A stretch of DNA of 64,000 nt, from contig CP054189.1 of the NCBI GenBank assembly GCA_015709495.1, positions 682,001 to 746,000 of the forward strand, read 5' to 3'. Shown here one piece after another: positions 2,967 to 5,584 of the stretch (position 1 is the first letter of the stretch; the number at the start of each line of letters is the position of its first letter). Under the pieces are notes generated by a model. It worked only from the letters and a program-made list of their open reading frames with translations, ran no database searches and was not told the DNA's origin. Source of the stretch: Chthonomonadaceae bacterium (lineage in GTDB: Bacteria > Armatimonadota > Fimbriimonadia > Fimbriimonadales > Fimbriimonadaceae). The translations under genes and the position numbers were made by a program.

Positions 2967-3593
2967 TCAACCTAACACGTTGTTCGTGGTCTTGAAATGC
3001 AGCTTCGCGACCTTGTCGAGGGCCTCGCGGCCGTACTGCTCAACGAATCGTTTTCCTGCGGCGACGACCGCCGGAGACGCTCCCTTGGGGAGATCGACGC
3101 CGAACTCCTTCGAAAGCGCCTCCAAGCGCCATAGGAACTCCGCACGGGCGAGGATCGAGGCTGCGGCGACGGCGATGTCTTGCTCGCCCCGGACCATCGA
3201 GATAAGCTCGATCCGTTTGCCCTTTTCGAATAGCCTGCGCTTCAGAACCTCGGGGTCCGCGAACTGGTCGCTGATCACCTGAGAACAGGGCTGGAGTTCC
3301 AACACCTCTTCGATCGCCCTCGCGTGGCCCCAGGCCAGGAGTCGGTTGAGGTTGCCGATCTGGCGATAGAGTTCGTTGTATTTATGGGGAAGAATCGTCA
3401 GGACCTTGTGCGGACATGTCCGCTTGATCGTCGCGGCCAGCTTCTTCGCAACGCCATCGGCCAGCTTTTTCGAGTCCCGGACGCCGTCCAGTTCGGCAAG
3501 GTGCTCCGGGCCGACGTAGCAAGCGGCAACGACCAGCGGACCGAAAAAGTCCCCCTTCCCGCTTTCGTCGACTCCGATGTGTCCTTCGCGCAC
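2967..3593 (-). CDS. rnhC: Ribonuclease HIII-like (short form)
   Basis: It would cut the RNA strand of RNA-DNA hybrids. The start reads G-V-D-E-S-G-K-G-D-F-F-G-P-L-V, the HIII-type version of the type 2 RNase H motif, with the acidic pair at D9-E10. A third acidic site is in V-I-S-D-Q-F-A-D and a fourth in the E-Q-D-I-A-V-A-A-A-S-I-L-A-R segment. At 208 residues it is about 90 shorter than typical RNase HIII and has no room for the N-terminal TBP-like substrate-binding domain. It is divergent from tgt, with only about 40 bases between the two starts. Confidence 0.85.
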   Translation of the reverse strand: MREGHIGVDESGKGDFFGPLVVAACYVGPEHLAELDGVRDSKKLADGVAKKLAATIKRTCPHKVLTILPHKYNELYRQIGNLNRLLAWGHARAIEEVLELQPCSQVISDQFADPEVLKRRLFEKGKRIELISMVRGEQDIAVAAASILARAEFLWRLEALSKEFGVDLPKGASPAVVAAGKRFVEQYGREALDKVAKLHFKTTNNVLG

Positions 3594-3633: not shown

Positions 3634-4752
3634 GTGGACGGTCGCGTCGCGTTCGAAGTCGTCGCCGAGTGCCCTCGGACTGGGGCGCGCCGGGGGCTCT
3701 TACGCACGCCGGGAGGGGTGGTCGAGACGCCTGCCTTTATGCCGGTCGGAACCCAAGGGGCGGTGAAGACCGTCGGCAGCGAAGACTTGGAATCTCTGGG
3801 ATACCGGCTGATCCTTACAAACACCTATCACCTCGCCCTCCGCCCCGGGGCTGAGGTCGTCCGCGAGTTGGGCGGAATTCACAAGTTCATGGGCTGGTGC
3901 GGCGCCGTTCTTTCGGACTCAGGCGGGTACCAGGTGATGAGCCTGTCGTCGCGCAGGTCTCTCACCGACGAGGGGGTTCGCTTTCGCTCCCATCTCGACG
4001 GCAGTGAGTTGTTCCTAAGCCCTGAGGAATCGGTCCGAATCCAATCGGAATTGGGGGTCGATATTGCGATGTCGCTCGACGTGTGCCCGCCCTACCCATG
4101 TACGCGCGAGGAGGCCGCAGAGGCGATGCGGCTGACGCATTTGTGGGCGCCAAGGAACCTGGAATCCCGACTCTCGCTCCCCGAATCCCGAAGGCCGGCG
4201 CTTTTTGGAATCGTCCAAGGCGGGGTCCACGAAGACCTGCGCCGAGAGGCCGCTGAATTCCTTTCCAGCGCGCCGTTCGATGGGTTTGCGATCGGCGGCG
4301 TGAGCGTCGGCGAGCCCACCGAGTTGCAGCGGCCTGTGGTGCGCCAGGTCGCCCCTCTGCTCCCCCAGGAGAAGCCGCGCTACCTGATGGGAGTGGGGCA
4401 CCCCCAGGACATCCTTCACGCTGTGTCTTGCGGCATCGATCTCTTCGATTGCGTCTTGCCGACCCGGATGGCCCGCCACCATTGCCTCTACACGTTGCAG
4501 GGCCGCGTCAACATTCTCAACGAGCGGTGGTCCAAGCACAAGGGGCCGTTCGATCCGGCGAGCGTCTTTGCCCCGACCCAGCGCTACAGCGCGGCCTACG
4601 TCCGGCACCTATTCAAAGCGGGCGAACCACTCGGCCCCCGGTTAGCCACGCTGCACAATTTGGCGTTCTATAGCCGGCTGATGGAAGAGATTCGGCAAGC
4701 GATCTCCACGGGAACTTGGGACGATCTGCTGACCCGGTACGAAAGGGCCTGA
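3634..4752 (+). CDS. tgt: Queuine/preQ1 tRNA-ribosyltransferase lacking zinc-ligand cysteines
   Basis: It would exchange guanine 34 for preQ1 in GUN-anticodon tRNAs. The catalytic features are intact: the S-D-S-G-G-Y-Q motif with base-binding D95, A-I-G-G-V-S-V-G-E-P, and nucleophile D272 in F-D-C-V-L-P-T-R. The zinc site is not. The CxCxxC that follows the barrel is replaced by S310, F312 and T315 (A-S-V-F-A-P-T), while the fourth ligand, H341 in T-L-H-N-L, remains at the expected 31-residue distance. I chose GTG 3634 because the longer frame from 3577 runs into divergent rnhC and shows no similarity there. Length (372 residues) is normal. Confidence 0.92.
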   Translation: MDGRVAFEVVAECPRTGARRGLLRTPGGVVETPAFMPVGTQGAVKTVGSEDLESLGYRLILTNTYHLALRPGAEVVRELGGIHKFMGWCGAVLSDSGGYQVMSLSSRRSLTDEGVRFRSHLDGSELFLSPEESVRIQSELGVDIAMSLDVCPPYPCTREEAAEAMRLTHLWAPRNLESRLSLPESRRPALFGIVQGGVHEDLRREAAEFLSSAPFDGFAIGGVSVGEPTELQRPVVRQVAPLLPQEKPRYLMGVGHPQDILHAVSCGIDLFDCVLPTRMARHHCLYTLQGRVNILNERWSKHKGPFDPASVFAPTQRYSAAYVRHLFKAGEPLGPRLATLHNLAFYSRLMEEIRQAISTGTWDDLLTRYERA

Positions 4753-4766
4753 CCTCCGTGCCCGCG

Positions 4767-5498
4767 TCAGGGCTCCTTTCTGGGAGACTTCCCCATTGCG
4801 TAGATCATCCAGCCTGCGGGTTCGCCCAGCTTCACCTTGGGGTGGCACGCGAGACACGACTCATCAAAGTAGTCCATCCGCCTTGCGACCCAAATCGCCG
4901 TATCGCTCTCACTATCCAGGGTGGTTTGGGAGCCAGACAGGGCCTTCTTCGCGACGGCGACGAACTCGCCAGGCTTGATTTCGCTAGGAACCCCGTCGGG
5001 CGCGTCGACGAAGTTCGGCCGGGGGTTCGGCCGAGCGAGTTGTTCGAGCGCGAAGAACTGCCACACGACGGATCGCTTGGAATCCTCGATCCAAATCCTG
5101 AGACGAGCGGCCTCGGGGTCGATCGTCTCAATCAGCCCCGACTTCGCGCCCAGTACATGCGGCTGGAAGGTGTTGAACGCCGGGGACATCATAGGAAACC
5201 TGTATCCAAGGTTGGAGTACGTGTGAATGATCGAGAGCGGATTGACCTCGCGGGGCTTGCCCGTCTTCGGATCGATGGGCGGATCTTCCTTCTGCTGCCG
5301 GTAGAGTTCAGCGAGAGCTTTCGAGTTGATCCTTAGGGAGTCGGCCTGAAGCTCAAACCACCGTTCGGTGAACGCCAAGAACGTCTGGGGCGTCGGCTCC
5401 TGCGGCTGGGAAGCGCGTGGCTCCGAAGACCACTCTCCGCAACCGATAACCCCCCAACCTGCCGAAAGACCGCACAAGGCTGCGACAAGGCGTTTCAT
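4767..5498 (-). CDS. Predicted heme c lipoprotein (DUF3365/Tll0287-like)
   Basis: The chosen start gives M-K-R-L-V-A-A-L-C-G and a lipobox-like V-I-G-C near residue 19, so the mature protein is probably a lipid-anchored envelope protein of about 225 residues. Near the C-terminus is a single C-L-A-C-H heme c attachment motif followed by G-W-M-I-Y-A-M. The arrangement (long N-terminal region with I-H-T-Y-S-N-L-G-Y-R-F-P, then one CxxCH) resembles the DUF3365 family of heme-binding sensor-like domains. A role in redox sensing or electron transfer is inferred. It is convergent with tgt (14 bases apart). Confidence 0.6.
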   Translation of the reverse strand: MKRLVAALCGLSAGWGVIGCGEWSSEPRASQPQEPTPQTFLAFTERWFELQADSLRINSKALAELYRQQKEDPPIDPKTGKPREVNPLSIIHTYSNLGYRFPMMSPAFNTFQPHVLGAKSGLIETIDPEAARLRIWIEDSKRSVVWQFFALEQLARPNPRPNFVDAPDGVPSEIKPGEFVAVAKKALSGSQTTLDSESDTAIWVARRMDYFDESCLACHPKVKLGEPAGWMIYAMGKSPRKEP

Positions 5499-5584
5499 GC
5501 AACGTCCCCCCGCAGGGTTAGACTCCGAGACCTTTCTCCGGGTTACTCCGTTTCCGAGCCAAGCGGCCATGCCACAATACCGCC

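Follow-up and report, generated by a model that had tools for sequence, protein, structure and literature searches.

The only tgt gene found in a 2.90 Mb single-contig genome of the Armatimonadota very probably encodes a working tRNA-guanine transglycosylase (Tgt) that swaps guanine for preQ1 and holds a metal-free, rebuilt zinc knuckle, as sequence comparison and structure prediction jointly suggest. The zinc site usual in Tgt, made of CxCxxC and a downstream His, is absent from this protein, which carries S-F-T-H instead.

The tgt gene and its product

The gene lies in a 64-kb stretch of DNA, analysed as a whole and called the window here, with the following features (residues are numbered from the GTG at 3634 and, after the slash, from the ATG at 3577, which adds 19; zinc-less and zinc-type rows are those of the alignment of relatives described below):

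2967–3593, minus strand: RNase HII-family gene (PF01351), with 17 bases of overlap between its listed start and tgt as read from the ATG
3634–4752, plus strand: tgt, for a tRNA-guanine(34) transglycosylase of 372 aa from the likely GTG start (an alternative start is the ATG at 3577)
3916–3918, plus strand: catalytic Asp, 95/114 (Asp102 of Z. mobilis), Asp in 89/89 zinc-less and 70/70 zinc-type rows
4447–4449, plus strand: nucleophile Asp, 272/291 (Asp280 of Z. mobilis), Asp in 89/89 zinc-less and 70/70 zinc-type rows
4561–4578, plus strand: former CxCxxC zinc knuckle, now S-V-F-A-P-T, aligned with the Z. mobilis Tgt cysteines; clade-wide
4585–4608, plus strand: helix past the knuckle with dimer-interface Tyr337, Tyr341 and His344 (ATG count), by alignment to Z. 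mobilis Trp326, Tyr330 and His333
4654–4656, plus strand: retained fourth zinc ligand His, 341/360, His in 89/89 zinc-less rows
4767–5570, minus strand: 267-aa protein bearing, close to its end, a haem-c-like CxxCH motif (CLACH); convergent with tgt

The product matched PF01702 with 457 bits and the curated equivalog model TIGR00430 with 429.9 bits, and with a score so far above the equivalog cut-off (306.75) it is most likely a bacterial Tgt with predicted preQ1 insertion. The GTG start was preferred because the start of the RNase HII-family gene overlaps the ATG reading, and the matches to relatives mostly start at residues 14–25 of that longer reading. A second tgt, which an earlier note on this DNA had thought worth looking for, was not found in the window's genome. 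Matches above cut-off to QueF, QueA and QueG are present in the same genome, and QueA was matched in 59 of the 61 genomes searched, 56 of them over the cut-off, the window's own included. QueF makes preQ1. As QueA, which acts on preQ1-tRNA, is present, a preQ1-inserting Tgt is expected, and position 34 of GUN tRNAs would be the site where the enzyme puts preQ1 in place of guanine.

The translation reads ...PFDPASVFAPTQRYSAAYVRHL...ATLHNLAFY..., and phmmer alignment to Z. mobilis Tgt chains placed its Ser, Phe and Thr on the three cysteines and its His on the fourth ligand. The knuckle codons are those of Ser310 (4561–4563), Phe312 (4567–4569) and Thr315 (4576–4578), numbered 329, 331 and 334 in the ATG count that is used hereafter, and the His stands 31 residues past the first knuckle position. 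The earlier note had therefore read both the Ser/Phe/Thr replacement and the His at its kept spacing correctly, as it had the intact catalytic Asp95 and Asp272, whose numbers fit the GTG start.

The base-recognition and catalytic positions 114, 168, 170, 214, 244 and 291 are all as expected in the window's Tgt. Throughout the zinc-less rows, Asp114, Asp291, Gln214, Cys170 and Val244 are invariant (89/89), Cys170 and Val244 being bacterial-type base-recognition residues, and Asp168 is kept in 88/89 with His in the remaining row. The helix past the knuckle is conserved too, with Tyr341 and His344 in 89/89 and Tyr337 in 86/89 rows; its Z. mobilis counterparts Trp326, Tyr330 and His333 form, together with Phe92, an aromatic hot spot of the homodimer, according to PMC5395182.

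Distribution and single origin in Armatimonadota

The nearest named records belong to Fimbriimonadaceae and other Armatimonadota, the phylum that includes the order Fimbriimonadales. A first set of relatives comprised 208 loci with a Tgt match, which correspond to 167 distinct sequences; distinct sequences were counted because some loci drawn from two collections are the same records. After seven truncated or interrupted sequences were omitted, 160 were aligned with the query, and 88 of them were missing two or more of the cysteines, 70 had all three, and two had a shifted CxxxCC arrangement. The 89 zinc-less rows are the 88 sequences without the cysteines plus the query, which is counted beside its identical locus L001. 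The His was kept in 88 of the 88 distinct zinc-less sequences of the window's order. Most zinc-less Armatimonadota Tgt carry SxF..T where the three cysteines would be; in others the third of these residues is Leu, Val, Ala, Ser, Asn or Cys.

A search of 291 Armatimonadota genomes gave a Tgt match in 275, and in 121 of these the motif was read. None of the 82 readable genomes of the window's family (f1), three of which retain one cysteine, and none of the six genomes of a sister family (f5) had more than one of the three, while all cysteines were present in 12/12 readable genomes of the other families of the same order (f2, f3 and f4) and in the 19 genomes read from 12 further families. The two remaining families among those read, f27 and f28, with one genome each, had the shifted arrangement. 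Loci L125, L136–L139 and L186 stand outside this per-genome table, and L125, L137 and L138 show CCCH in a separate reading. Where the family is known, zinc-less Tgt in the first set thus belongs to the window's family and one sister family only. The alignment of relatives that the earlier note had proposed accordingly reveals a clade-wide loss in two families of the order.

In a first tree, built by a quick method with the motif columns removed, the zinc-less rows form one side of one branch (SH-aLRT 99), and shuffled labels need about 53 changes; this tree carried warnings on long branches, one of them joining the zinc-less L121 and L123. A second, wider tree again placed the zinc-less rows of the order in one clade (SH-aLRT 97), beside L124 of f3 with all cysteines. 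One loss explains the zinc-less Tgt of both families. In their common ancestor, the three cysteines would have given way mostly to Ser, Phe and Thr (or Leu or Val). The tgt of the zinc-less clade is under strong purifying selection, with dN/dS of 0.03–0.15 in the 15 pairs with dS ≤1.3 among the 30 closest pairs computed (one of the other 15 had dS 3.1 and 14 were saturated).

Zinc-less Tgt in other phyla and the question of zinc economy

Four further phyla, named after the record leading there, were surveyed with a profile built on the C-terminal part of zinc-less Tgt, which favours zinc-less sequences, so that the counts given here are no frequencies. Matches were obtained in 332 of 348 genomes of Bacillota (L070), 270 of 294 of Planctomycetota (L072), 92 of 96 of Kiritimatiellae and kin (L081), which we take to be Verrucomicrobiota by GTDB, and 94 of 95 of Myxococcota (L108). 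The motif was read in the 30 best matches per phylum and in 40 hand-picked, non-random matches of the L072 phylum, and a sequence was called zinc-less when no more than one of the three places was occupied by cysteine; rows in which two of the places had cysteine and a further one stood next to the third (three in the survey, two in the first set) were not scored as such. By this definition zinc-less Tgt made up 0/30 in the L070 phylum, 6/30 and 4/40 in the L072 phylum, 11/30 in the L081 phylum and 2/30 in the L108 phylum, 23/160 in total. They read C-S-S-H, C-S-L-H, T-S-S-H, L-N-A-H, L-E-A-H, T-gap-C-H (one), gap-V-V with the first place gapped (one), and G-P-T-Q or S-P-A-Q with the His changed to Gln, and the active-site positions D, D, Q and D were kept in all 23. 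The change of His to Gln marks one clade outside the window's order (10/11 rows). In ten Tgts of the L081 phylum, L317–L321, L323, L326, L331, L336 and L338, all four zinc ligands are gone, with Gln for the His, and HPHV(T/A) is conserved. Dimer residues are less constant in these other clades, Tyr341 being Ala in L331, L336 and L338 and Val in L273, and His344 being Tyr in L359.

The second tree (108 rows, 36 of them zinc-less, quick method, L273 left out) distributed the zinc-less rows over six separate clades, the window's included, each with cysteine-bearing rows as neighbours; counting the starred branches alone still required six changes. Tgt therefore appears to have lost its zinc ligands about six times in bacteria, or five times if a regain occurred near L289, since change counts cannot tell loss from regain and rows with all cysteines, such as L293, lie between L289 and the C-S-S-H clade. 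The zinc-free lineage of Tgt suggested by the earlier note is supported at the level of sequence, being clade-wide, under purifying selection and represented by the sole tgt of the genome, but it is not the only one, as there are five further zinc-less clades.

A second Tgt match is present in the genomes that gave the T-S-S-H and L-x-A-H clades, and in 5/5 two-copy genomes checked a zinc-type copy stood beside the zinc-less one; 15 other fetched copies were zinc-type too. The zinc-less/zinc-type pairs are L275/L375, L282/L378, L310/L379, L359/L376 and L365/L377. For the C-S-S-H, L289 and G-P-T-Q clades, each source genome had a single Tgt match. It is possible that the paired copies represent a zinc-responsive pair. 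The zinc may have been dropped by drift after compensation, or through zinc economy where two copies coexist. Adaptation to zinc scarcity, which concerns the cause of the loss and is compatible with a working metal-free Tgt, would accord with the paired copies in other phyla and with the link between zinc and queuosine synthesis, a second QueD being predicted to be Zur-controlled in some bacteria (PMC9508795). It is nevertheless a rather unlikely cause in the window's genome, where the zinc-less Tgt is the only copy and the two zinc proteins examined, ribosomal L36 (CxxC...CxxxxH) and S14 (CxxC...CxxC), retain full ligand sets; the same two proteins leave a genome-wide loss of zinc unsupported. 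A broader speculation, of rather low probability, treats the zinc in Tgt as a staple that can be exchanged and that bacteria have dropped about six times with different fillings; paired copies may then keep queuosine modification running in zinc scarcity, in the manner of the second QueD or of zinc-free copies of ribosomal proteins.

What may have replaced the zinc

Several residues around the former site differ between the zinc-less clade of the window's order and zinc-type rows. Phe331 is found in 88/89 zinc-less rows, with Ala in the clade member L122, and its place is held by Cys in 70/70 zinc-type rows; Leu359, directly before the retained His, is found in 88/89, with mostly Ile or Tyr in zinc-type rows; and Val330 stands in 71/89 in place of mostly Asp. 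An AlphaFold2 model of the window's Tgt, computed from the protein with 39 zinc-less and 8 of 40 zinc-type named loci, had a mean pLDDT of 92.3 and block means of 94–98 over residues 301–350 of the GTG reading, and a zinc-type control (L077 with 38 others) had block means of 94–97 over 301–340; pLDDT weighs little for a metal-free knuckle because AlphaFold2 ignores metals. Foldseek matched the predicted model to 1pud and 1efz (TM 0.95, rmsd 1.6 Å), in line with the TIM-barrel fold of Tgt. Plausibly, Phe331 and its hydrophobic neighbours occupy the place of the metal and hold the next helix, at the Tgt homodimer interface, and the former ligand His probably stays as a hydrogen-bonding or packing residue. 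The stabilisation by other contacts that the earlier note had offered is hence plausible from Phe331, Leu359, the hydrophobic changes and a fold confidence as in the control; the packing itself is inferred.

Some observations count against a metal-free, active Tgt. According to PMC9508795, TGT needs zinc to be active, for which it cites a paper on E. coli zinc-ligand mutants. Three genomes of the window's family have one cysteine left, L122 has Ala at the place of the Phe, and the dimer residues are less constant in the other zinc-less clades. The His invariant throughout the clade could mean that some metal binding survives, through this His and new ligands near the knuckle or through a new site made of clade-specific histidines. 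Candidates near the knuckle are Glu335 (58/89 zinc-less rows) and His321 (57/89), neither among the common letters of zinc-type rows, and elsewhere His275 (85/89 zinc-less against 0/72 other rows; codon 4399–4401), His301 (89/89 against 12/72) and His302 (74/89 against 2/72; codons 4477–4482 for both). However, Glu335 and His321 are missing in about one third of the clade, and the three histidines lie near catalytic and tRNA-binding residues in sequence, not at the old zinc site; in space, too, we take them to lie near those residues and away from the old site. The ligand His itself has become Gln in nearly all rows of the other clade mentioned above. A replacement metal site was accordingly judged unlikely, although Glu335 and His321 are new in much of the clade, and retention of a metal appears improbable overall.

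His275, His301 and His302 could reflect a changed tRNA or base handling, or drift; together with Met298, another clade-specific change near the active site in sequence, they lend some weight to the idea that the protein acts on another base or another nucleic acid, or is decaying. Against such a changed or lost function stand the kept catalytic and base-recognition positions, including Cys170 and Val244 (with the single row having His at 168), the purifying selection, the presence of QueF, QueA and QueG, and a score far over the Tgt equivalog cut-off, and we regard it as slightly less probable still than a surviving metal. A sequencing or assembly error can be practically dismissed, since the same state recurs in 88 distinct sequences from many assemblies, among them L140, from another genome of this species, with a Tgt at 98% identity. 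Relatives with all three cysteines, which the earlier note had named as grounds for doubt when joined to a local error, occur only in the other families of the order and beyond and not in f1 or f5, and the error is unsupported.

Relation to known systems

A working, metal-free Tgt would share with the usual bacterial enzyme (TIGR00430; Z. mobilis and other structures) the fold, the catalytic Asp pair, the base-recognition residues, the dimer Tyr/His and the pathway partners, and would differ from it by the replaced CxCxxC, by the His as the only ligand kept and by the histidines particular to the clade that lie near the active site in sequence. Cysteines of a structural zinc site are likewise lost in zinc-free paralogues of ribosomal proteins, bL31B among them. 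The logic is the same, and paired zinc-type and zinc-less copies also exist for Tgt in some other phyla; unlike these paralogues, the zinc-less copy here is the sole one in its genome. Glutamyl-tRNA synthetase (GluRS), another tRNA enzyme, lacks its structural zinc in many bacteria and yet retains fold and function; hydrogen bonds and packing hold the zinc-free domains together, and E. coli GluRS with the zinc-free domain of another species was as functional as the wild type (PMC4381286). GluRS differs from Tgt in protein family and fold, and its zinc-free form has been tested experimentally (PMC4381286). The eukaryotic homologues QTRT1 and QTRT2 have a zinc domain that is involved in dimer formation (PMC6165067, PMC4425180). 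Unlike the window's Tgt, both keep the zinc ligands, QTRT2 having altered catalytic residues instead. The zinc domain has been called a hallmark of the Tgt class (PMC6165067).

No paper on a zinc-less Tgt was found by title or abstract start in the open-access literature, among the matches listed, and the variant seems undescribed there. In an E. coli TGT cryo-EM paper (PMC13416341), the words zinc and cysteine are absent from the main text. A solved zinc-less Tgt was sought among the PDB matches, and the chains whose alignments were seen (Z. mobilis chains, 10fb and 2ash) all carry CxCxxC. We assume that 10fb is the Tgt of E. coli and 2ash that of T. maritima.

If true, a natural, single-copy and conserved zinc-less Tgt would mean that evolution can design a metal out more than once, and it would tie queuosine modification to zinc economy. 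Such enzymes would also be ready-made proteins with which to ask whether zinc serves dimer stability or tRNA binding, and studies of the dimer interface, which the knuckle supports, would gain natural knuckle variants.

Gene neighbourhood and minor observations

The RNase HII-like gene and the CxxCH protein, which has no Pfam match at 1e-5, were each found beside tgt in 3 of 208 loci, many of which have little flank. The three loci are L001 and L002 of the window's genome and L140 of the same species, so that the flanking genes, beside tgt in this species only among the loci searched, gave no help in naming an operon partner. Neither a tRNA nor an Rfam match reaching the gathering score was found in the 64-kb window, and none of the 19 stretches of viral contigs that matched a pattern encodes a relative. 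An 864-codon frame in genus g9 was considered as a fusion and discarded, its first part reading as another frame of the upstream DNA and showing no known domain by eye.

Locus L059 (JADZEW010000001.1) is titled Methanoregulaceae archaeon, and its Tgt motif and identity to the query are the same as those of L028 from the window's family; the archaeal title is probably a mislabel. Three fragmented genomes of that family, G126, G133 and G165, have two Tgt matches each, and the second may be either a gene fragment or a genuine additional copy. The shifted CxxxCC knuckle of L187 (f27) and L193 (f28) is likewise found instead of CxCxxC in L245, L272 and L274 from the Planctomycetota-like phylum of L072, and it may represent a stepping stone or an alternative zinc site.
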